DNA of 44,984 bases, taken from a virus. Positions within the stretch are counted from its first letter, which is position 1, and every line of letters starts with the position of its first letter. The stretch lies in IMG/VR virus record IMGVR_UViG_3300017963_000100, positions 1 through 44,984 of that record. One strand, 5' to 3'. The notes below the pieces were generated by a model. The model did not search any database and was not told the origin of the DNA. It saw only the letters and a program-made list of their open reading frames with translations. Below, piece after piece: positions 1,878-44,984 of this stretch. A program made the position numbers and the translations under genes.

Positions 1878-2660
1878 AGTAAAATGATTTAGAGGGTTGT
1901 ATTTGTCCCAAAATGGATCTGTCTTCTTTCGTGTAGTACCGGCCAGGGGTTCGCATATGTTCTTTGTACGGCGATCGTCGTCAACGGTCATATATCTAAG
2001 CATTGATACGACGGGGGACGCCTGCGCCGCTTTCCAACGCCCTGCACTATGCGCGGTTCCGTAGTTCGTACGGTAAACCGTTTCGATATAATAAGGACTT
2101 TCGCCGGCCAGGCCGATCCGCGCCATTGCTTGATCGCGTCCGATTTTATCTAAAAAGTCGCGGTACCCTAATCCCGTTTCGACGTTTTCGGCCAGTACGG
2201 ATCGAAGACTTTTCATATTATCATAAAAGTCAAGTTTTGCCCGGTCCGATACCATTGGCCCCATTGTCTGTTCTAGGCTTTCGACGTATTCGGCGTCTAC
2301 CCCCGCGTCGTTTAAGATACTTTCGATCGTTTGTTCGTCGATAACTTCGGCAACGTCCCCTTTTACGCTGAAAACTTCAACCGTACCCCCGAGTACGGCG
2401 GCGTTTACCGCGCTTTCTTGTCTTTCAACGTTTTTGTTGACATGGATAAAGCCCATTAAATGCGCGTGTATCATTGAAAGTTCGATCAATGTTTCGGCGT
2501 TGTTTCTGTATTGGGTTCCCGGTTTCGGGTCGGAGTCTTCGACGCGTTTGTAAAGTTCGTCGTATATGTTGTTCGCTATTTCTTCGCCGTAATACTTCGT
2601 AAGGCTCTTGAGATCTCTTTGATCAAGGGCGGCCTGTTTTTCGGGGGTTCGGAGCGCAAA
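1875..2660 (-). CDS. MuF-type head morphogenesis domain (phage Mu gp30/gpF-like), reached by -1 frameshift from the portal
   Basis: The domain begins FALRTPEKQAALDQRDLK, continues through a helical region (YYGEEIANNIYDELYKRVE) and ends with the MuF signature: YIETVYRTNYGTAHSAGRW, a DDRRTKNICEPL core, and DPFWDKYNPLNHF. MuF proteins act inside the head near the portal during assembly. No ATG or GTG occurs in this frame between the portal overlap and 2489, where only a TTG is found, and starting there would cut the conserved helices. The frame is continuous with the portal if the ribosome slips -1 in the T9 run at 2666-2658, giving about 680 residues to this TGA or about 740 to the stop at 1698. 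Alternatives are a one-base homopolymer error or a separate TTG start at 2489. Confidence 0.7.
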   Translation of the reverse strand, partial: FALRTPEKQAALDQRDLKSLTKYYGEEIANNIYDELYKRVEDSDPKPGTQYRNNAETLIELSMIHAHLMGFIHVNKNVERQESAVNAAVLGGTVEVFSVKGDVAEVIDEQTIESILNDAGVDAEYVESLEQTMGPMVSDRAKLDFYDNMKSLRSVLAENVETGLGYRDFLDKIGRDQAMARIGLAGESPYYIETVYRTNYGTAHSAGRWKAAQASPVVSMLRYMTVDDDRRTKNICEPLAGTTRKKTDPFWDKYNPLNHFT

Positions 2661-3919
2661 AAAAAAGCGTTTTCGTCTTTGTTGGAAAATTCGCCGCCGA
2701 TCGTTGTAACCTGCGGTTCGACTAATTGATCGTCGTCGCTTTCGGGCGCTCCGACATTGAACTTTTTATAAAACCATTTACCCGAAACCGGGATCCGCGC
2801 CTGTACTGCTTTGATCGTTTCGTCGTAACTCGGGTCGTATTCGTAAATGTATTTAAAAGTCGGTAATTTTAGAGGATCGATCGGCCCTTGGTTTAGTTCC
2901 AGGGTCCAACGTAAAAGAGTATTTACGGCGGGTTGTTGTTCGACCGTTGTTACCTTTTGCGCCCTGGCTTCAATTAGGTTTTCTTGGCTTGTCGTATCGC
3001 CTCGGTTACTGTACCGCGTGTCGTTCGTCAACGTGGCGACGCCGATCAAGGCTTTCGAGATCATACGGTTGAACATTTCGACTAAATCAATTATGTCCGT
3101 ACCTTTACTTGTTGCGTCGACGGTTTCGAGGCTTTCGATATTAGCCAGGGCGATCCCCGAGCTATTCGCGAGTTTTGTAAGCTCTTTTGCGATTAACGCG
3201 CCTTGTTCGGCGGTTGTATCTGCATTTTGTGAACCTTTGAAGATTGCCACGATCGACGGTATGATCGCTTTTTTGACATACAAAAGACCCGCTTTTATGC
3301 AAATTTTACGGAAAAACCAGGGCCAGTAAGCCTTTAATATAAGACTATTCCCGTTTAGGTTACCTTGTCGGACGTCGTGAGATACTGAAACATATTTGTA
3401 CGGCGCGTCCAGTACCAAACCGCCGGCCCGGTCTACCATCTCGCCTTTTTTGTTGAACCCGTACCGACTAGGATCGAGCGGTTTTAATCTATCGATTACC
3501 CAAACGCCGCCCGTAAGCGCGGGATCCCTCCAAATTACTTCGCAAATCACAAAACCATAGTCTAGGGCGTCGTAAAAGTTCGATACCTGCGCAATTAGGC
3601 GGCCGCCTTCGCGGGTAATATATTCGGTATAGAGTTCGGCCAGGGCGGGATCCTTTTCGTCGGCGGGTTGTACTATGTACGTCGTATTCCCAACAAACGT
3701 TTTAAACGTTTCCATTTCGGCGGACACTTGATCGTCTTCAAGCATTTTTTTAACGGTTTCGGCCAGTTCGTCGACCCCTAGATCGCTTAAAAATTCTTCG
3801 CTTTGAAAGCTAAATAATTCCTCGAGATCTTCGCCTTCAAATTCGGCGATCAAGTCTTTAGTTAGTTCGGCCGGGTTCGGTTTCGGCGCCGTTTGAAAAA
3901 GTCTTTTCCAAAAACTCAT
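2576..3919 (-). CDS. Portal protein, Mu gp29-like (DUF935)
   Basis: 447 residues in the standard frame. It matches the DUF935 portal pattern: an acidic N-terminal helix, FYDALDYGFVICEVIWR, a YVSVSHDVRQGNLNG stretch, LILKAYWPWFFRK, then GSQNADTTAE..LAKELTKL and the helical stem with MISKALIGVATLTNDTRYSNRG. Portals form the dodecameric DNA gate at the head vertex. Residues after about 420 (LRSEPPKNRPPLIKEISR onward) look like out-of-frame translation, because the -1 frame carries the better protein from there on. ATG 3919 follows the HExxH gene stop by one base. It is unusual that the portal lies in the leftward operon with replication genes, about 18 kb from the terminase. Confidence 0.88.
   Translation of the reverse strand: MSFWKRLFQTAPKPNPAELTKDLIAEFEGEDLEELFSFQSEEFLSDLGVDELAETVKKMLEDDQVSAEMETFKTFVGNTTYIVQPADEKDPALAELYTEYITREGGRLIAQVSNFYDALDYGFVICEVIWRDPALTGGVWVIDRLKPLDPSRYGFNKKGEMVDRAGGLVLDAPYKYVSVSHDVRQGNLNGNSLILKAYWPWFFRKICIKAGLLYVKKAIIPSIVAIFKGSQNADTTAEQGALIAKELTKLANSSGIALANIESLETVDATSKGTDIIDLVEMFNRMISKALIGVATLTNDTRYSNRGDTTSQENLIEARAQKVTTVEQQPAVNTLLRWTLELNQGPIDPLKLPTFKYIYEYDPSYDETIKAVQARIPVSGKWFYKKFNVGAPESDDDQLVEPQVTTIGGEFSNKDENAFFLRSEPPKNRPPLIKEISRALRSITAKK
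2658..2666 (-). other. Candidate -1 frameshift site (T9) joining portal to MuF
   Basis: On the minus strand the portal frame reads GCT TTT TTT TTG, which contains the slippery heptamers T TTT TTT and T TTT TTG. A -1 slip moves the ribosome into the open frame encoding the MuF domain. A missing T in the homopolymer would give the same picture. Confidence 0.5.
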
Positions 3920-5488: not shown

Positions 5489-7753
5489 TTAGTCTTTACG
5501 GTAACGCCGCCCACGCCAACCCCCCGCCGCTTTGATCGGCCAACCCTTCGCCCACGCGGGGACGGTTCCCATTATCTGTTCTAACTCTTCAACCGACCCC
5601 GAACCCGCCGGGACTTCGGCCGCTAGTTCGTCGTGTACATGCAAAACGATCGGGTACCCGGCCTTTTCTGCGTTAACCAGGGCGTATGCGAGTATATCCC
5701 GCGCGACGGCCTGCGTTACGTTTTCGCAGAGTTTACCGCCGTACGTTTCCATACGGATCCAACCGATCGGCCCTTTCGTACTGTCCGAATTCCAACCCAT
5801 AAACGACAATTGATAGATCGGGTTTTTATGGTACCTATGAGTCGTTGAAAACAACCGGGGGGCGTGGTACGTGATTAAACGCCCCGAGGGAAGCCGACAA
5901 TACAACGTATCGTCTTTTACGCCGTAGGTAATGGATCGACACGCGTACGCCTTTCCCGGGTTCAAAACGGCGCAGACGGCCGCCCCCTCTAATCCGTAAT
6001 ACTCTTGTTTGTAGTTTCGAAACCCGGGCATTTCGCGCCACTGATCGCCCCAAAATTCAACGATCGCCGGCGAATCCTCGCGCCATTTTAAGATCGCGTC
6101 TTTTATTTCGTCGTCGTTTTTAAAATGTTTGTCGGCGCCGAACGCGCGCCACGCCCCGATCCAACCCTGGTACCCGCTTGCGAGTTCCGCAACTTTTCCG
6201 ATTTTCTTTCGTAAAGGATGACTTTCGCCGGTTCGTTCTTTGTAATCTAAAAACTCTTGAAACGGGATCCCGGTTATTTTGGCCGCGCTCATTTCGTAGA
6301 TCTTACCGTGGGATCTAAATACGTCTTGGCGCCATTTTTCGCCGGCCAGTTCGGCCAGTACAACCGCTTCGATCGCGGAAAAGTCCGAACAGATAAGATC
6401 CCGGCCAGGCGCGGCGGTAAATAATGCGCGCATACAACCCGACATAGCTTTTAAAGAGTTTTCAAAATAGTGCTCTAAAAGGTCGACGTCCCGGCCCGAC
6501 GAAATTAGTATTACGTCTTCGACTGCGTCCAGGTTCCAAGGCGCCGGCGCCATTTCCGACGATCGGCACCATTTACAAACCGCCGCCCCGGTTGCCTGGT
6601 AGTGTCCACAATTCCCGCAACGGTCGACGGCGGGGCCGCTTGTCGCTAGGTTATGGGGTTGAACCTTTGAACCGGCCCAACGTCCAGTACGCGCGACATG
6701 ATACCCGAACAAGTCCCGCAAGCGGTTATCGTCGCATCTTTGAACGTCGATCGCTTGTAGTTTTTTGACGCTTGCCATTGAAAGCCATTGACGGATCAAA
6801 AGTACGCGGCGGACGTTGAAAGGTAGATCGGATCGTTTTAGGGCGTCTTTTATCGTTTCGGCCTGGACGTTCGGCAAGTTAATCCCGTAATCGGCTATGT
6901 ATTCGCGTAATTTTTCGTATTCGTTGACGGTACCGACCCGGCCGCAGGTAAGGCGCACAAGTTCCCGCGTGTATTTGATTTCGGTTTGTCTGTACAGTTC
7001 CAAAAAGTGTTCCAGGGTTTCGACGTCGATATGTACGCCGCGCAGGTTGATCCGTTGACTTGCGATCCATACCTCGAGTTCGTCGGCGCTTAAATCGGGA
7101 CACAGTAACGACGCTTCGGCCTCGGTTTCAATATCCCCGATATTGTAAAAAATAAAGTTGTCGGCGTCTTTGGGGTCGTCTTCAAGGCGGATCCGTTGCC
7201 TTTTGTCTTTTTTCGTCGGGGAACGCGGGATCGAAAACTTGCGTATTAAGCGTTTTCCCTCTTTATCTTTTTGTGTTTTTGTCCCGAGTACTTCGGCCAG
7301 TTTTCCCAATTGCCCCGGCGCGGCGTACGCCCTGGCTTTCGCCTGCGCGCATCTTTGTTGCTCTAATGGTAACGGCGGCCAGTTCATACGCTTGAAGCAA
7401 ACGTAATGCCAGATCAGAAACTCAAAACCGGCGTTAAACGACTCTAAAAGGCCGCCGCCGGCGATATAATCGAACAGTTCTTGCGGGGGTTGCATACCCT
7501 GGACCCAAGACCGAGATCCGACGCCGTCGAACAAATCGTACGAAAGCATTAAGATCTCGGTCGTCGGGTCTTGGGCGTATACCGCCGCGCCTACTCCTTT
7601 GATCCCCGGTTTATTCGATACTAGGGATTGGTACCTTTCTTTTTTGTTGTTAAAAATGTAACCTGCTTTGGAAAACGTTTCGACGTCCAAAGTAGGGATC
7701 GCAGTTGACACCGAACAACCCGCCGGGGTTTCAAAGTAGGCGTTTAGGTTCAT
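5489..7753 (-). CDS. DNA polymerase I, family A, phage type, with 3'-5' exonuclease domain
   Basis: 754 residues. The N-terminal exonuclease is marked by TLDVETFS (Asp23/Glu25) and later FYNIGDIETEAE. The polymerase domain has motif A SDFSAIE (about 452-458), motif B RKKIGKVAELASGYQG, and motif C HVHDE (705-709). There is no 5'-nuclease domain. A four-Cys zinc-ribbon-like insert (CGNC at about 380, CKWC at about 394) lies between the exonuclease/thumb region and motif A. The gene follows the ssDNA-binding protein by one base and is the central replicase of the leftward operon. This polymerase type typically occurs together with the DUF2800 and DUF2815 proteins, as here. Confidence 0.93.
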   Translation of the reverse strand: MNLNAYFETPAGCSVSTAIPTLDVETFSKAGYIFNNKKERYQSLVSNKPGIKGVGAAVYAQDPTTEILMLSYDLFDGVGSRSWVQGMQPPQELFDYIAGGGLLESFNAGFEFLIWHYVCFKRMNWPPLPLEQQRCAQAKARAYAAPGQLGKLAEVLGTKTQKDKEGKRLIRKFSIPRSPTKKDKRQRIRLEDDPKDADNFIFYNIGDIETEAEASLLCPDLSADELEVWIASQRINLRGVHIDVETLEHFLELYRQTEIKYTRELVRLTCGRVGTVNEYEKLREYIADYGINLPNVQAETIKDALKRSDLPFNVRRVLLIRQWLSMASVKKLQAIDVQRCDDNRLRDLFGYHVARTGRWAGSKVQPHNLATSGPAVDRCGNCGHYQATGAAVCKWCRSSEMAPAPWNLDAVEDVILISSGRDVDLLEHYFENSLKAMSGCMRALFTAAPGRDLICSDFSAIEAVVLAELAGEKWRQDVFRSHGKIYEMSAAKITGIPFQEFLDYKERTGESHPLRKKIGKVAELASGYQGWIGAWRAFGADKHFKNDDEIKDAILKWREDSPAIVEFWGDQWREMPGFRNYKQEYYGLEGAAVCAVLNPGKAYACRSITYGVKDDTLYCRLPSGRLITYHAPRLFSTTHRYHKNPIYQLSFMGWNSDSTKGPIGWIRMETYGGKLCENVTQAVARDILAYALVNAEKAGYPIVLHVHDELAAEVPAGSGSVEELEQIMGTVPAWAKGWPIKAAGGWRGRRYRKD

Positions 7754-8672: not shown

Positions 8673-9833
8673 TTACTCCTTTGACGCGTCCCCGAATAGG
8701 TAACGCGCGTTTTTTAGATCGTCGTAAATTAGCTTTTTTCCTTTTTTCTTTTTTTCTGTAAAAGCGTCGACAAGTTCCGCAGATAGCCCCGCTTTTACTG
8801 CTTGCGGCGGCGTCAAGGTTTTAGGTACCTCAAGATCAAGGCCGTACGATTTTCCCAACTGGACGATCTCATTGTGCGAAATGTTCCAATTATTACGCCC
8901 GAAAGTATCCGTTAAACGAAACCGGGGAACGTTCGCCCCCTTTTTTAGCTTGGTTTCTAGTTCAGTTCGCAGGGCGTCGACACGGTGATCGATCCTTTTT
9001 TGTGCCTTTTCTAGTAAAAATAGTTCGTACCATTGATCCCGTTCGGGTACGACATACGAACCAAGGCCGCCGATCATATCCAACGCGTTAAACGTCGTTC
9101 GTTGATTAAATTCACAAGAAACCAGGGCGGAGCAACGCCGGCAATGATCGCCGCTTTCTACGAAGGCGTCGGATCCCATTGCCATTTCTGCGGCGTCCCG
9201 TAATTGGTTTAAATAGGTAGTGTTTAGAGTTCCGCGCGTTAGTTTCCAGGTACGGACAGGGCCGCGCGCGTGGGGGGCGCGCGGTTGAATGATCATTAGT
9301 TTGATCGTTGCCGGTTTTTGAGTTAGTCCCGCGACGATCCCGATCGCGTACGCGAGTAATTGCCAATTTTCGAAAACTTCATGTACGCCAAAGCCAAACT
9401 TTAGATCCGCAACGTATAAAATACTTTCATGCGAATCAAACAAATAAAAGTCGGGCGTCCCGTAACAATCAGCGTGTACGTCTTCAATAGTTACGGGTTG
9501 TTCGATCCCGAGGTTCGGGCCGCCAAAGACGCCGGCCGATCGTATTAGTTCGGTACACGTATCGGCGTAAAGTACGGCGCCGTCGACCATTTCTTGCGTA
9601 ACGGTTACGCCGTCGCGGACTTTCCCGACTTCTGCGACGGCGGTTTGCTTGTACCCCTGGCCTTTCGTCGATCCCCGTATGAAGTCCGCGCCGATCGCGT
9701 GTACCGCGTTCCCTTCGTCTGCGTCTTGTCCGCCTTCGTCGGGCGGTAAAATCAAACATTCTTGAACCGACCCGGGGCAAGGTACCCAAATCGGCGCGGA
9801 CGACGGCGCTAATATTGAATGATCGCCGGGCAT
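8673..9833 (-). CDS. DUF2800 family PD-(D/E)XK nuclease
   Basis: 386 residues. DUF2800 proteins are RecB/Cas4-like nucleases of phage replication modules. Visible motifs: SSAPIWVPCPGSVQ near the N-terminus, EGNAVHAIGADFI, then the nuclease core DCYGTPDFYLFD (about 124-135) and VADLKFGFG (Asp-x-Lys at about 142-144) followed by NWQLLAYAIG. A Cys cluster CRRC-x5-C near 235-245 could bind a metal or an Fe-S cluster as in Cas4. The C-terminus is helical and Lys-rich. It overlaps the upstream gene by one base and lies just ahead of the ssDNA-binding protein. Confidence 0.85.
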   Translation of the reverse strand: MPGDHSILAPSSAPIWVPCPGSVQECLILPPDEGGQDADEGNAVHAIGADFIRGSTKGQGYKQTAVAEVGKVRDGVTVTQEMVDGAVLYADTCTELIRSAGVFGGPNLGIEQPVTIEDVHADCYGTPDFYLFDSHESILYVADLKFGFGVHEVFENWQLLAYAIGIVAGLTQKPATIKLMIIQPRAPHARGPVRTWKLTRGTLNTTYLNQLRDAAEMAMGSDAFVESGDHCRRCSALVSCEFNQRTTFNALDMIGGLGSYVVPERDQWYELFLLEKAQKRIDHRVDALRTELETKLKKGANVPRFRLTDTFGRNNWNISHNEIVQLGKSYGLDLEVPKTLTPPQAVKAGLSAELVDAFTEKKKKGKKLIYDDLKNARYLFGDASKE

Positions 9834-17243: not shown

Positions 17244-17828
17244 ATGAAAACTTTACTAGACCCGGGCCACGGGGGGATCGCTTTCGGTCATTACTTGACG
17301 CCCGGCAAACGTTCGCCCGACGTACCCCCGGGCATTTACGAAGGCGAATTTAACCGAATAGTATGTAACAAGGTCGAACGCCTCAATACTTCAAGTTTTC
17401 TAAACATAGCGCCGGGGCCGATCAATATTCCGTTAAAGTCCCGCGTGTCGTTCGTTAACCAGATCGCGAAGCGGGAACCGTCGATCCTTATTTCGGTACA
17501 CTGCAACGCGGCGGGGGGTTCCGGTTGGAGTTCGGCGCGCGGCCTTGTTGTTTGGCTTTCTAACCGAGCGTCGAAAAACTCAAAAAAGTTAGCGCGGATC
17601 GCCCTGGAACAAATGACCGAAGCATTAAAAGGGTATATCGAACCGCGATCGACTCCGATTAGAACCGCGAACCATACGATCACGACGCAGACTAATTGCC
17701 CGGCAATTTTGATCGAGGTCGGTTTTATGACAAATTTACCCGAAGCGGCGTTACTTGCAAGCAACGAAATCAAAAATATGACTTGCAACGGGATCGCGCG
17801 GACAGTTACGGAATATAAGCGATCATAG
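17244..17828 (+). CDS. N-acetylmuramoyl-L-alanine amidase endolysin (Amidase_3)
   Basis: 194 residues, a bare catalytic domain. Zinc ligands and catalytic residues are visible: LLDPGHGG (His9), YEGEFN (Glu33 or Glu35), SVHCNA (His86) and CPAILIEVGFMTN (Glu158). It cleaves the amide between MurNAc and L-Ala. No signal peptide and no wall-binding domain, which fits a Gram-negative host and release by a holin. It lies in the early rightward operon among replication genes, not with late genes. Confidence 0.9.
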   Translation: MKTLLDPGHGGIAFGHYLTPGKRSPDVPPGIYEGEFNRIVCNKVERLNTSSFLNIAPGPINIPLKSRVSFVNQIAKREPSILISVHCNAAGGSGWSSARGLVVWLSNRASKNSKKLARIALEQMTEALKGYIEPRSTPIRTANHTITTQTNCPAILIEVGFMTNLPEAALLASNEIKNMTCNGIARTVTEYKRS

Positions 17829-17970
17829 TCAAAAAAGCGGCGCCGAACGATACAGGGGATCACCATACCGCCGGCGCCTAAAAGGAAAAGGAACCGTTAA
17901 AAGCGTATCATGTTTCGAAATCGCGTACAACAACTTGACGGCCAGGGCGCCGGCAAGGTACAAAAGGAAA

Positions 17971-18003
17971 GACCCGGCCGAACGTTACAAGCGCGGCCGG
18001 GTC
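17971..18003. terminator. Strong hairpin between amidase and primase genes
   Basis: Perfect 10-bp inverted repeat GACCCGGCCG (17971-17980) and CGGCCGGGTC (17994-18003) with a 13-base loop, in the 238-bp gap 17829-18066. On the plus strand it is followed by AAAACATC, on the minus strand by TTTCCTTTT, so a classical terminator would act leftward. Against rightward transcription it may attenuate or stabilise the mRNA end. Confidence 0.5.
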
Positions 18004-18066
18004 AAAACATCGAAAGCCCAAAGCCAAGAAATAACATAGTATTGTCATTTGGGCAAGGGGATCGCA

Positions 18067-20460
18067 ATGCTTCCTAAGTCTTTTGACGCCCTGAAAAAGT
18101 ACAATCAATTTATCATTTATAGACTTGATCAACTAGAAAACGGGAAAACGAACAAGGTACCCCAAACGCCGATCGGGACGGGGAACGCCGATCCCCATAA
18201 CGTCGAAAACTGGTTATCATACGATCAAGCGTTGGGCGTATTGGGCAAGCTCGGGACGCCGTACGGCCTCGGGTTCGTCTTTACCGACGCGGATCCGTTT
18301 TTCTGTATTGACGTCGACGCCTGTTACCAGGGCGGGAAATGGTCGGATCTATCGTTGGAAATGCTGCGCGCGTTCCCGGGCGCTTGCGTCGAATGGTCTG
18401 TAAGTCGAACGGGGATCCATATTTTCGGAACGTATCGGCAAGTCGACGATCACAAAACGCGCGACAAAGCAACCCCCGGGCTAGAACTGTACACGGCGGC
18501 CCGGTTTGTTGCATTGACCGGGATCGAAGTGTACGCCGCCCACGGGGACGCCGGCGCGGACTTTACCGCCGAACTGGACCGATTGATCGCGCAAACGTTC
18601 AAGCGCGTTACAACGGACGGGGGCGCCCCTCTTGAATGGACCCGCGAACCCGTCCCCGAGTACACGCCGATCGGTACCGACGAACAGATAATAAAACGGT
18701 TGAACGGTTGGAAGTCGTACGGGTCAATGTTCAAAGACGGCCTAACGTTCGCCGATTTGTTCGGGGGGAACGTCGACGCCTTGGCCCGGGCCTTTCCCTC
18801 GAGTACAGACATTTATAACCGCAGTTCCGCCGATATGGCGTTAAGCGTCCGTTTTGCTTTCGCCACGGGGAAAAACTGCGATCATATTTGGCGCCTTTTG
18901 TGGAAATCTGCGCTAGTTCGGGACAAGTGGCGCGAACGTCCCGAATACGTCCAACGAACGATCGTTAACGCGATCAACTTTCAAAAAGCGGTTTATACTG
19001 GTAAAACCAAAAAAGAACCCGCTTACGTCGAACCGGGGGCGGCCGTACCTGGAACCCCCCAAGCCAATGATCCCGCCCCCGGTTTGGCGCCCTCTAACGA
19101 TACGCCCGGCCCCGGCGTTGCGATCCTACCATTGACCGATCAACTTGAACTTTTCAAAGGTTGCGTCTATGTCGCGGATCGACATCGGGTATTTATGCCA
19201 AACGGCGAACTAGTAAAGCCCGAAACGTTTAAAGCTCTTTTCGGCGGGTATTGGTTCGTAATGGATGGAAACGGAAAACAAACAAAAAACGCTTTCGAAG
19301 CTCTAACCGAATCGCGTTTACATCATTTCGACAAAGTTAGTACAACTTGTTTTCGGCCCGACCTGGAACCGGGCCTTATCATGTCCCGGGGCGTTATTAC
19401 GGCCGTAAATACGTTCGTACCCCAATACGGCGCGCAGGTAAAAGGGGACGTTTCGCCGTTCTTGGATCATGTCGCGCGATTGATACCGAACGAAGACGAC
19501 CGGGCGATCGTCTTGTCGTACCTTGCGGCCTGTATCAGATACCCGGGCGTCAAGTTCCAGTGGGCGCCATTGATCCAAGGGATACAAGGCAACGGTAAAA
19601 CGGTTTTGTACCATGTTGAAGAGTACGCGTTAGGCGAACGGTATTGCCATCAAGTAGATCCGAAAGACTTAGATAATAAATTCAACGCTTGGATCTCGGG
19701 CCGTATGCTCGTATGTATTGAGGAAATACGAACCGGCGGCCGGCGGGACGTTGCCGACGCCCTGAAACCGTTAATAACTAATCGACGGGTAGCAACGCAA
19801 GCAAAAGGACAGGATCAACAAACGAGCGACAATTGCGCGAACTTCCTTTTATTTAGTAACCACAAAGACGCAGTACTAAAAACAATCGACGATCGCCGTT
19901 ATTGTGTCTTCTACACGGCGCAACAAGACGTCGACGATCTGAAACTCTGCGGTATGGACGGCCCGTACTTCAAAAAGTTGTACAACTGGCTAGACCGGGG
20001 CGGGGGCGCGGCGGCCGTTGCGCATTACCTCGCGATCGAGTGTCCGATCACTATTGATTTAATGGGCCGCGCTCCGAATACCTCGAGTACTGAAGAGGCG
20101 TTGACGGCGTCGCAGGGGACGGCCGAAAACATACTAACCGAAGCCATAGAAGCGGGGGCGCCTGGCTTTACCGGCGGACTGATCGACGTACAAGACGCCG
20201 TCGATCACTTAACGCGCGAAGGCCGTAAGTTTTCCGCCAAAAAGGTCGGGGCAATGCTTCGATCCCTGCGTTACGATTTACACCCCGCCTTGAGAGAAAA
20301 TAGCGACGGCCGGGTATACGTCGCAGGCCGAAAGCGTCGGATCTTTGTTCGGAAACATACGATAGTATGGAACATCGAAACGCCCGATCAAGTCGCGGCG
20401 AAATGGCTAGAACTAAAACAAGAGGCGACAACGCCAAACGCGGAACTAGTAACGAAGTAA
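18067..20460 (+). CDS. Primase-polymerase / D5-type replicative helicase
   Basis: 797 residues from ATG 18067 (GGGGATCGCA site). N-terminal PrimPol-like domain: YGLGFVFTDADPFFCIDVDAC (Asp pair near 80), VEWSVSRTGIHIFG. Middle helical region, then a Pro-rich linker (about 325-360). The C-terminal helicase has the Walker A GIQGNGKT (505-512), CIEEIR as Walker B, and FSNHKDAV..DDRRY as sensor region. It is the replicative helicase-primase working with the family A polymerase. It lies closest to the candidate origin, only ~0.8 kb upstream of it. Confidence 0.9.
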   Translation: MLPKSFDALKKYNQFIIYRLDQLENGKTNKVPQTPIGTGNADPHNVENWLSYDQALGVLGKLGTPYGLGFVFTDADPFFCIDVDACYQGGKWSDLSLEMLRAFPGACVEWSVSRTGIHIFGTYRQVDDHKTRDKATPGLELYTAARFVALTGIEVYAAHGDAGADFTAELDRLIAQTFKRVTTDGGAPLEWTREPVPEYTPIGTDEQIIKRLNGWKSYGSMFKDGLTFADLFGGNVDALARAFPSSTDIYNRSSADMALSVRFAFATGKNCDHIWRLLWKSALVRDKWRERPEYVQRTIVNAINFQKAVYTGKTKKEPAYVEPGAAVPGTPQANDPAPGLAPSNDTPGPGVAILPLTDQLELFKGCVYVADRHRVFMPNGELVKPETFKALFGGYWFVMDGNGKQTKNAFEALTESRLHHFDKVSTTCFRPDLEPGLIMSRGVITAVNTFVPQYGAQVKGDVSPFLDHVARLIPNEDDRAIVLSYLAACIRYPGVKFQWAPLIQGIQGNGKTVLYHVEEYALGERYCHQVDPKDLDNKFNAWISGRMLVCIEEIRTGGRRDVADALKPLITNRRVATQAKGQDQQTSDNCANFLLFSNHKDAVLKTIDDRRYCVFYTAQQDVDDLKLCGMDGPYFKKLYNWLDRGGGAAAVAHYLAIECPITIDLMGRAPNTSSTEEALTASQGTAENILTEAIEAGAPGFTGGLIDVQDAVDHLTREGRKFSAKKVGAMLRSLRYDLHPALRENSDGRVYVAGRKRRIFVRKHTIVWNIETPDQVAAKWLELKQEATTPNAELVTK

Positions 20461-41013: not shown

Positions 41014-42843
41014 ATGTCAAGAAATGTAATACCAAGCGACGGGCGACATAGTGAAAAAGAGTTAGACGCCGATCTTACGGTCCCGGCCGGCGCAGTTTTT
41101 ACCGAACTACAATCAAAAATAAACGTCGCGAACAATGGGGACGGCCTGCGGATCGACGGCGCAGACGAACTAGTGGTACGCGTCGCCGTGGTCGGTTCTA
41201 TGCCCGCCGGTTCGGAAGTGGTAGTACAACCGATTTTACATGGTTTCGTCGGTTTAACGCCTATTAGCTTGACGCTTGGGGCCATTATCGACGGGATCGT
41301 TGAAGCTAGGTTAGAAAATAACGATACGTTTCGCGACGCGGACTTGTTGAAGGTTACTTACGAGTTCAAGCAGGGGGGCGCCCAATACCTAGTAAGCGCC
41401 GTAAATCTACAGGTAAAAAAAAAGTCTTCTCTTGATCCGGTAATCGCCCCCGAAACAACCGAGGATCTAGAATGGCATATTGACCCGGTCGCAGGTAGCG
41501 ACGAAACGGGGACCGGATCCGCCTCGCAACCGTTCAAAACGTTTGCATGTTTGGATCGGTTGCCCTTTACCATTAAAAACGAAGTAAAGATCAAGCCCAA
41601 GGCCGGCGCGTACTCGTACTTTCCAGAATATTACACGCGTGAATTTTTCGGTAATGGTCGGATCGTTATCGACTCGAGCGGCGAAACGTACCCCGTTACG
41701 GCGGGACCGTTTACGATCGGGACTGTAACCGGCGTCGGGGACGCTTACCAGGGTTACCCAATGGCGACGGATCTACAAGTAACAGGATCGCCCGGTTGGA
41801 CGCCCGACGATTATTACCCGAAGTTTATACACATACTTACGGGTAATTGGGCGGGGTATGTATTACCAATTTTTAAGAATACGGCGGACACGATCCGAAC
41901 TTCCGCCGATTGGTACACGTTCGCCCCGGGGGATACTTTTAATATTGTCGATTGTCCCACCGTGATCGATATTCCCGATAGTACATATTGGCGCGGTAAT
42001 GTCGCGCGTCTTATGGATTTTACCGGGGTTGCATACAAAGACGCGCCCATGACCCCCGTACTTTTAATGTCGGGCGTCAAAATTCGCGCCAATAGTGTTA
42101 AACAAAAAAGATCGCCTTTCAAGTTTCAGGATATTACCGCCGTTTTTTCATTCTGTGCATTTATCAACGAAGACGACGTAAGCCCTGAATTAAGTAAAAA
42201 CATTCTTTCGATATTCAATATGTCGTTAAATGGTCAAATTTTAGAAACCGCCGCTTTTGATAATAATAAATGTTCGGATTGGTACGCGTACGCGTTCCAG
42301 GTTTCACAAAAAGAGGGGGATCCGCGCGATAATGTCGCGTCGGATATTGAGATCGCGAACTGTTTACTAGCTTTAACTTGTTGCCGGGGCGGTATTTGGC
42401 CGATCGCGAAACCAGGGTACGAGGGCGGCGGGTTCGTTTCGTATTCTATGTGCGGCGCCATTGTTAACAATGCTTCGGGCTATTGGGATATAGGGCCGGT
42501 TTTTTTAGAACAAATAGGGTTTTCGGACGTTGCGATCGAACAACAAATGAACGGGCGTTTAAAAATTAGGGGCGTATATTTAGAAAATTGCGGGACGCCT
42601 GTTAAGGTTGCTTGGGGCGCGGGGGTTTCTTGTGAATGGTTCAAAGGTAATACTATCGGCGGACAATACGCCCTTGAAATTGAAGACGTATCAAACTTTA
42701 TTATCGAGGGCGCCAACTGTAGCGTATTAGGTACTTTGGGCGCATATAAATTTTTGTTTACTGGTACAACTAGCGCAACTTGGCCCGGGGCCGGCGCATC
42801 GGACGACGACGGCGCGGGATCGTTTGTTTTACGTAAGCCGTAA
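41014..42843 (+). CDS. Tail fibre/spike 1 with shared anchor domain
   Basis: 609 residues. Residues 1-139 form an anchor domain paralogous to that of the fibre at 42858 (MSRNVIPSDGR identical; LVVRVAVVGSMP, RDADLLKVTYEFKQGGAQY, KKKSS boundary). Then a carbohydrate-type beta-helix: WHIDPVAGSDETGTGSASQPFKT (a typical parallel beta-helix opening, 'D...GsD...Gt...PFkT'), then solenoid repeats with several cysteines, ending in a small C-terminal part. Likely polysaccharide-binding or -cutting spike. Confidence 0.8.
   Translation: MSRNVIPSDGRHSEKELDADLTVPAGAVFTELQSKINVANNGDGLRIDGADELVVRVAVVGSMPAGSEVVVQPILHGFVGLTPISLTLGAIIDGIVEARLENNDTFRDADLLKVTYEFKQGGAQYLVSAVNLQVKKKSSLDPVIAPETTEDLEWHIDPVAGSDETGTGSASQPFKTFACLDRLPFTIKNEVKIKPKAGAYSYFPEYYTREFFGNGRIVIDSSGETYPVTAGPFTIGTVTGVGDAYQGYPMATDLQVTGSPGWTPDDYYPKFIHILTGNWAGYVLPIFKNTADTIRTSADWYTFAPGDTFNIVDCPTVIDIPDSTYWRGNVARLMDFTGVAYKDAPMTPVLLMSGVKIRANSVKQKRSPFKFQDITAVFSFCAFINEDDVSPELSKNILSIFNMSLNGQILETAAFDNNKCSDWYAYAFQVSQKEGDPRDNVASDIEIANCLLALTCCRGGIWPIAKPGYEGGGFVSYSMCGAIVNNASGYWDIGPVFLEQIGFSDVAIEQQMNGRLKIRGVYLENCGTPVKVAWGAGVSCEWFKGNTIGGQYALEIEDVSNFIIEGANCSVLGTLGAYKFLFTGTTSATWPGAGASDDDGAGSFVLRKP
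41418..41424 (+). other. Slippery heptamer A AAA AAG in fibre 1
   Basis: In frame as GT[A] AAA AAA AAG within an A9 run. A -1 slip gives V-F-S then TGA (41433-41435), ending the product at 140 residues, exactly after the shared anchor domain. A bulged GATC.CGG/CCG..GATC hairpin starts about nine bases downstream. Confidence 0.45.
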
Positions 42844-42857
42844 AAGGAGAAAAACCA

Positions 42858-44984
42858 ATGTCAAGAAATGTAATACCAAGCGACGGGCGTTTTAATAAAC
42901 CCGAGCTTGACGCGTCTTTACTGGTAGCGGCCGGCGGGTCGTTTGTTGATCACGTTTCGGGAATCAATGCAGAAAACGACGGCGAAGGCCATAGGATCGA
43001 CGGCCTGGACGAACTAGTTGTACGGGTTGCAGTTACGGGAACAATGCCGGCCGATTCCGAAGTAGTAATAACGCCGATCGTTCACGGGTTCCCCGACCTT
43101 GCCGACATTACGTTATTGTTGCCGACGATTACCGACGGTATTACGTCGGTACGGCCTGCGGTTCTTTCGGACATTGAAACGATCCGCGACGCGGACTTGT
43201 TGAAAATAACATATCGTTTCAAGCAGGGGGGCGCCGACTATACGGTAACGGCGATCAGTCTGCAAATAAAAAAAAAGTCTAGCGGGGGCGGCGTAGCGTC
43301 CGAAGTAGTGATCGAACAAATCGGATCCGCAACCTTCGCAAGTGTTCAAGACGCAATAAACCAGATCGGATCGGCCGGTTCTAGTTCCGAAGGGTACATA
43401 ACCGACGCCGGCGGGGGTTCTATCGACGTTGCGACGGGGGCGGGTTTTATTCGTGTTACTGATTCGCATAACTCCACATTAAAAGCGTTTGATTGGGCCG
43501 CGTCGTCGGGGGTTGCCATACCGTCGGATACTGCGCGATACGTTGGGGTCGAATACAACGCCGGCGCGCCTCAAATTGTGATCAAAACGGTTGATAGTTG
43601 GGATTGGCATACCGAATTCAGATTAGGATCCGTAGTAAACGAAGGCGGGACGCTTCATATATTGAACAACCCGCAAAGATTAAGCGACGGGATCGCGCAT
43701 ATTTTCGAACGTTTTTACGAGTGTCGACCCCTGGAACGGGCCGCCCGTATCGGCGGTATTATTGCCGGCGAAACTGGTACGCGTAATTTAACCGTTTCGG
43801 CCGGCGAATTGTACGACGGTCTAAACGAATTTGACGTAGGGGGGATCGATACGAGCGGGGCGGATACGTTCGACGCGTATTACCGGGACGGCGGCGGCGG
43901 TTTTACGAAAGTACCAGGCGCGACGCAATGGGATAATTTACAATACGACGACGATTCAGGTACGTTGCAACCTTTGGGCGTTTCAAAATATGGCGTACAT
44001 TGGATTTATATTGAAGCCGATAACAATTTAATTTTAATGTACGGCGAAGACGAATATAATACGCAAGCGGCCGCCGAAAATTCAAACCCGCCGGCGTCGG
44101 TACCCTTACGATTACAGGTACACGGGCGTTTGATTAGTCGTATAATTTTCCAACAAAACGCCGCGACGGCGATCGAGTTTCAAAGCGTTTTTGATACTCA
44201 ATTCGATCCGACTTTGGTTAGCTCACATACGGCGCTTTCGAACGTTACCGCCGATCAACACCATAACGAAGATCACGCGGCCCGACACAAAGGCGGCGGG
44301 GCGGACGTAATCGACAACGCGACAACAACGATCGCGGGGTTAATGAGTGGACCCGATAAACTAAAACTTGATACCCTGGCCGCCGGGGACGTAACAACCC
44401 CCGTACGGAATGAAACGGGCGGCCCCCTTTCTAAACACAAATTGATCGCCGTCGTCGGTTACAGCGGGACTCACTCGCGGCCCCTTGTAAATTACGCCGA
44501 TAAAGATAACGCAGCGTTGCGCCCTTGCATTGCGATCTTAATGGCGGATCTAGCAGATAACACAAACGCCGACGCCTTGGTAGTTGGAACCCTAACGAAC
44601 GTTGATACGTCGGCGTGGTCAATTACTGATCAATTAGTTCTAGGGGCAAGCGGGGCGATCTCGCGTCCGCCGCCCGATCAAGACCCTTTTACGGGCGAAA
44701 TTCAGAATATTGGATCCGTTTCGGTCGTTAACGCAACGATCGGCCAAATTGTGATCTCTATTGACGGACAAAACCCAATAACCGCCGGGCAAGTTTTCGC
44801 GGCCGCAGGGTCGGACGGGACGCCGTCGAAAACAAACCCGTATGTTACGAACTCCGATCCAAGGTTAAGCGACGATCGAGATCCAACCGCCCACGCAAGC
44901 GATCACGAACCCGGCGGCGGGGACGCTATGACCGTAGACGCGGCCGCCGGTACTGGTAGTCTAAGGACGTTGGGAACGGGCGCC
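42858..44984 (+). CDS. Tail fibre 2, N-terminal part (continues at base 1)
   Basis: The gene begins at ATG 42858 (AAAGGAG site) and stays open to the window end; over the circle it continues at 1-979, total 1001 residues. Residues 1-142 are the anchor domain shared with the fibre at 41014, ending KKKSS. Next come beta-rich shaft modules (RYVGVEYNAGAPQIVIK, LILMYGEDEYN), a HHNEDHAARHKGGGADVI collar-type motif with GLMSGPDKLKLD, a GTLTNV.TSAWSI module, and NPYVTNSDPRLSDDRDPTAH linker repeats typical of long fibres. A second receptor-binding protein on the same attachment site. Confidence 0.88.
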   Translation, partial: MSRNVIPSDGRFNKPELDASLLVAAGGSFVDHVSGINAENDGEGHRIDGLDELVVRVAVTGTMPADSEVVITPIVHGFPDLADITLLLPTITDGITSVRPAVLSDIETIRDADLLKITYRFKQGGADYTVTAISLQIKKKSSGGGVASEVVIEQIGSATFASVQDAINQIGSAGSSSEGYITDAGGGSIDVATGAGFIRVTDSHNSTLKAFDWAASSGVAIPSDTARYVGVEYNAGAPQIVIKTVDSWDWHTEFRLGSVVNEGGTLHILNNPQRLSDGIAHIFERFYECRPLERAARIGGIIAGETGTRNLTVSAGELYDGLNEFDVGGIDTSGADTFDAYYRDGGGGFTKVPGATQWDNLQYDDDSGTLQPLGVSKYGVHWIYIEADNNLILMYGEDEYNTQAAAENSNPPASVPLRLQVHGRLISRIIFQQNAATAIEFQSVFDTQFDPTLVSSHTALSNVTADQHHNEDHAARHKGGGADVIDNATTTIAGLMSGPDKLKLDTLAAGDVTTPVRNETGGPLSKHKLIAVVGYSGTHSRPLVNYADKDNAALRPCIAILMADLADNTNADALVVGTLTNVDTSAWSITDQLVLGASGAISRPPPDQDPFTGEIQNIGSVSVVNATIGQIVISIDGQNPITAGQVFAAAGSDGTPSKTNPYVTNSDPRLSDDRDPTAHASDHEPGGGDAMTVDAAAGTGSLRTLGTGA
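43271..43277 (+). other. Slippery heptamer A AAA AAG in fibre 2
   Basis: Same place as in fibre 1, again within an A9 run. A -1 slip gives V then TAG (43280-43282), a 141-residue product consisting of the anchor domain only. A GC-rich hairpin candidate starts six bases downstream. Confidence 0.45.
44885..44984. repeat. 100-bp direct repeat, right copy
   Basis: Identical to 1-100; shows that the sequence closes into a circle of 44,884 bp. Confidence 0.95.

Follow-up and report, generated by a model that had tools for sequence, protein, structure and literature searches.

Nine-adenine tracts at the anchor boundary of two phage tail fibre genes are candidate slippage sites for anchor-only protein

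The two fibre genes that close the tail cluster of this phage each carry a run of nine adenines where a shared type of anchor domain gives way to differing distal parts, which raises the question of whether the run is an accident of encoding three lysines or a site at which some of the protein is cut short. The window, the whole stretch of DNA analysed here, comprises the 44,984 bases of one virus record and has its 3′ end inside the second fibre gene. It encodes a P2/Mu-like tail set of baseplate J and I, a tape measure, gpU, a propeller protein, a gpD-like protein and, last, the two fibres; the protein before the fibres is taken as gpD-like from its position. Fibre 2 sits after the tail genes and matches the tail fibre family phrog_5668 (E 9.6e-35, residues 145-447), and fibre 1 shows a weak match to the tail protein family phrog_4577 (E 7.8e-4). 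The two genes are divided as follows:

41014-42843, plus strand: fibre 1 gene, 609 codons
41014..41424, plus strand: anchor of fibre 1 (residues 1-137), which would be kept in a slipped product
41425..42843, plus strand: distal part of fibre 1, in common with the relative L005, which would be missing from a slipped product
42858 to the contig end, plus strand: fibre 2 gene, cut by the contig end
42858..43277, plus strand: anchor of fibre 2, residues 1-140
43278..44984, plus strand: distal part of fibre 2, running off the contig, which would be missing from a slipped product

At the end of the anchor, fibre 1 reads GTA AAA AAA AAG TCT TCT CTT GAT and fibre 2 reads ATA AAA AAA AAG TCT AGC. The original prediction had placed an A9 run, read as AAA AAA AAG, at the anchor/distal boundary of both fibres, and this was correct to the base. 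The tracts and the stops that lie in the shifted frames behind them are:

41415-41423, plus strand: A9 run of fibre 1, slippage-prone, read directly; the AAG ends at 41424
41433-41435, plus strand: TGA in the −1 frame of fibre 1, after three extra codons (GTC TTC TCT TGA)
41441-41443, plus strand: TAA in the +1 frame of fibre 1, after five extra codons
43268-43276, plus strand: A9 run of fibre 2, slippage-prone, read directly
43280-43282, plus strand: TAG in the −1 frame of fibre 2, after one extra codon (GTC TAG)
43294-43296, plus strand: TAG in the +1 frame of fibre 2, after five extra codons

A −1 shift would give products of 140 residues from fibre 1 (137 + 3) and 141 residues from fibre 2 (140 + 1), and we confirmed both the predicted −1 stops (at 41433 and 43280) and these lengths. 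Beyond what had been predicted, the +1 frame also stops five codons on in both fibres. The fibre 1 tract lies at codon 137 of 609, 22% of the way into the gene. Within the genes of the window, the two fibre tracts are the only sense-strand runs of eight or more adenines. A run of nine thymines, likewise slippage-prone, occurs in the sense strand of the Mu-type portal gene (2576-3919, minus strand; PF06074, E 5.5e-35) near its 3′ end (2658-2666; GCT TTT TTT TTG, about codon 419 of 447), where the +1 frame runs into a stop after 11 codons and the −1 frame is free of stops for 20 codons or more.

The tracts coincide with the end of what the two fibres share. Their anchors are 63% identical and their distal parts differ, and DNA identity between the genes stops directly after AAAAAAAAAGTCT, that is, directly 3′ of the tract. 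The fibre 1 anchor was modelled on the basis of six aligned sequences; the model shows, with confidence, a beta-rich domain that starts near residue 11 and has its last strand at residues 125-135. The lysine triplet occupies residues 135-137, and from residue 141 on pLDDT is below 50 almost throughout the same model. Since the predicted domain ends at the triplet, a cut just after it would keep the whole predicted domain. Comparison of the anchor fold returned only generic matches (TM-scores up to ~0.5), and a PDB sequence search with the anchor gave no convincing match. At the other end of the anchors, the two fibre genes are identical over their first 32 bases (ATGTCAAGAAATGTAATACCAAGCGACGGGCG; 41014-41060 and 42858-42900), and much of this stretch is common to L005; such identical starts may reflect gene conversion or constraint.

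To place these sites in a wider context, we compared them with related anchors. Searches of IMG/VR and GTDB contigs with one- and two-sequence anchor queries gave no match, nor did a gpD profile against GTDB contigs, and an anchor homologue was absent from INPHARED phages, PLSDB plasmids, Pfam and PHROGs. Four relatives, all uncultured phages, were found through the neighbouring gpD-like gene together with wider profiles and patterns. In L005 the anchor is ~52% identical and the distal part corresponds to that of fibre 1; the site reads GTA AAA AAA AAG CCT GAA CTG, with A9 and stops after one codon in the −1 frame and after two in the +1 frame. L007 has ~37% anchor identity and a different distal part; its site reads GTA AAA AAA AAA GAT GAA ATA, with A10 and stops again after one codon (−1) and two codons (+1). 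The tract is absent from L003 (CTG AAA AAC GCG) and L014 (CTC AAA AAC GCG) where the triplet would be; both have short C-terminal parts, the anchor being joined to other distal parts without a tract. The site is therefore not essential to the family. Conservation of run length and −1 stops, one of the proposed checks, thus held for two relatives (A9 in L005, A10 in L007) and failed for the other two. Tract lengths are A9, A9, A9 and A10 (fibre 1, fibre 2, L005 and L007), and the site is found in three of the five phages (the window phage, L005 and L007); in every case stops follow closely, the codons that form them being different.

Could these coincidences be incidental? The lysine triplet could end the anchor for reasons of protein structure, AAA-rich codon usage would then make a run of nine, and the stops would lie nearby by chance, any slipped product being noise. 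We regard this as a real possibility, although not the account that we would choose. Given the peptide, the chance of nine or more adenines is 0.25-0.49 per site, the chance of the stops given the actual linker peptides is 0.12, 0.02, 0.14 and 0.30 at the four sites (singly not small), two relatives manage without a tract, and the independent lineages are few. Against it stands the behaviour of the same genomes elsewhere. When synonymous codons were resampled in the window's genes outside the anchors, runs of eight or more adenines were expected 5.2 times and seen not once (P 0.003), and runs of seven or more were seen 6 times against 16 expected. The L005 phage has one run of eight or more where 4.6 are expected (P 0.03), and in it and the window alike AAG breaks every other Lys-Lys-Lys site. 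The valine codon GTA, which precedes the L005 tract, makes up just 5.5% of valine codons in that phage. The avoidance in the window hints that the polymerase of the window phage's host is slippage-prone. The AT-rich L007 phage shows no avoidance (18 runs seen, 19.7 expected), and because long adenine runs are common in it, its A10 tells little; its host may tolerate or suppress slippage. In the record that carries L007 (G003; 17444-18181, 6253-6936), many runs of A9 to A11 lie within genes, eight runs of at least nine being outside the anchor.

The stops also set the fibre sites apart. Both shifted frames are closed within five codons, a limit fixed after the sites were known, at 4/4 anchor sites and at 19 of the 201 other lysine-run ends in the five phages (23 of 205 ends in all; P 1.2e-4, weakening to 1.1e-3 if three sites are counted as independent). 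The heptamer by itself does not distinguish them. It had been cautioned that A AAA AAG also occurs in the lysine-rich tail of a DUF2800 gene, rightly so: the gene at 8673-9833 (minus strand) matches PF10926 (E 1e-35). Of the 11 in-frame A_AAA_AAG sites in the window's genes, the fibre pair alone has A9, and the fibre pair alone meets a −1 stop in three codons or fewer; at the remaining nine the run is A6-A7 and the −1 stop comes at 4 to >40 codons. Between phages, identical codons at identical residues occur at about the frequency expected from codon usage, and synonymous positions are thus saturated. The two fibres of the window fall short of saturation against each other (49 identical codons seen, 31 expected); they are not fully independent, and one inherited tract may be common to both. 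The comparative signal is good but comes from few lineages.

If the sites are used, by what mechanism? The ribosomal −1 shift of Escherichia coli dnaX combines A_AAA_AAG with an upstream Shine-Dalgarno (SD)-like element and a downstream stem-loop. The fibres resemble it in their in-frame heptamer, the close −1 stop and the truncated product; they differ in having no SD-like element or consistent stem-loop, in the closure of both frames and in a longer adenine run. By eye, no SD-like element was present at dnaX spacing in the 15 nt upstream of the four sites (fibres 1 and 2, L005 and L007). The predicted hairpins can be drawn downstream, but over 70 nt the fibre 1 fold is no better than that of shuffled sequence (z +0.96) and that of fibre 2 is marginal (z −1.59); the other two sites give −0.53 and −1.84. 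Across the sites, a downstream hairpin as stimulator is not consistently better than shuffled sequence. With neither an SD-like element nor a consistent downstream hairpin, a ribosomal shift of the E. coli dnaX type fits poorly, and this part of the original prediction was not borne out. Ribosomal frameshifting on the heptamer alone, giving truncated anchors, is accordingly improbable, although few heptamers shift more readily in E. coli than A_AAA_AAG (PMC5009743), which occurs in frame with a near −1 stop in fibres 1, 2 and L005. In L007, the AAG is replaced and the heptamer is A_AAA_AAA, and a purely ribosomal account leaves both the near +1 stops and the ninth adenine unexplained.

Slippage during transcription accounts for more of these features. 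Nine adenines or thymines permit high-efficiency slippage by bacterial RNA polymerase in vivo (PMC5009743), and the coding regions of many genomes avoid runs of nine (PMC1088944). The closest known case is dnaX (tau/gamma) of Thermus thermophilus, in which an A9 run followed closely by stops in the −1 and +1 frames accounts for the short gamma form, about half of the product (PMC1088944, PMC5009743). The fibre genes share with it an A9 run lying inside a single open gene, stops close behind it in both frames, a predicted truncated N-terminal product, no conserved stimulator found at the sites compared and, in the window and the L005 phage though not in the L007 phage, avoidance of such runs elsewhere. 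Because the fibre sites have these features, transcriptional slippage is favoured, with ribosomal slippage possibly adding to it. The fibres differ from Thermus dnaX in being structural phage genes, in their early tract (22% of the way along fibre 1, that of dnaX coming late), in forming two paralogues with one tract each and in that slippage is here a prediction. A nascent-RNA hairpin upstream of a run helps polymerase slippage (PMC5009743); among the sites only fibre 2 stands out in this respect, and the alignment holds no common structure, for which reason such a hairpin was rejected as a slippage aid. The structure at fibre 2 is a stable RNA hairpin (43218-43267; z −3.0) that lies 4 nt upstream of its A9 run.

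Two further explanations place the event in the DNA. Replication indels in the A9 run might switch each fibre off and on and so alter host range, as in phase variation by contingency tracts. The fibres share with such systems a homopolymer in an adhesin gene and a clean off state upon indels in either direction. They differ in that no length variants were seen and in that the effect proposed here acts on RNA within one genotype; nine adenines are short for such a tract, and the A10 of L007 stays in frame by a codon change rather than an indel. We consider this explanation very unlikely. That the tract is a module boundary at which recombination exchanges distal fibre parts is least likely of all, since, for all that fibre identity ends at the tract and the distal parts differ, it leaves the near stops in both frames unexplained and in L003 and L014 other distal parts follow the anchor with no tract between them.

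Taken together, these comparisons lead us to favour, tentatively and as something close to an even call, the view that the A9 tracts are functional slippage sites yielding some anchor-only protein. Host RNA polymerase would slip on the nine adenines to produce some fibre mRNAs with one or more adenines gained or lost, and a ribosomal −1 shift on A_AAA_AAG may contribute beside it. As both shifted frames stop within six codons, translation of such messages would end right behind the folded anchor. Each fibre gene would then give a full fibre and, besides, a complete anchor that lacks the adhesive part; this short product would be the anchor followed by between one and roughly six residues that are changed or added. 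The proposal that a slip at the boundary sets free an intact anchor, as first put forward, is in part supported: run and near stops recur with different codons in relatives, the modelled domain ends at the lysine triplet and the rest of the phage's genes avoid runs of this kind, but two of the four relatives lack the site. The short form, if stable, would probably occupy anchor positions on the tail or mix into fibre oligomers, leaving fewer adhesins per virion. A stronger version, in which polymerase slippage at the A9 tract behind each anchor is how the phage fixes its count of receptor-binding fibres per virion, fibre-less anchors serving as built-in competitors for attachment sites, is conceivable on this sequence evidence but rather unlikely.

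Recoding in a tail gene that gives two products in a ratio would recall the frameshift of tail assembly chaperones (lambda G/GT type). The shift there carries translation on into a second ORF, whereas the fibre shift would cut the protein short; where phages are known to shift frame in tail chaperone genes, the outcome is a longer protein and not a truncated one (PMC5009743). In a literature search of partial coverage, no account of truncating slippage in a tail fibre turned up. Such slippage is known from dnaX and is hard to predict by comparison (PMC1088944), because no new coding sequence is added. Here, two paralogues and two relatives supply a comparative signal. If the favoured reading is true, one gene would give a fibre and a cap in a set ratio, a simple means of tuning adhesin number per virion, and this suggests searching phages at large for A9 runs that sit where a domain ends and are followed by stops in the −1 and +1 frames.
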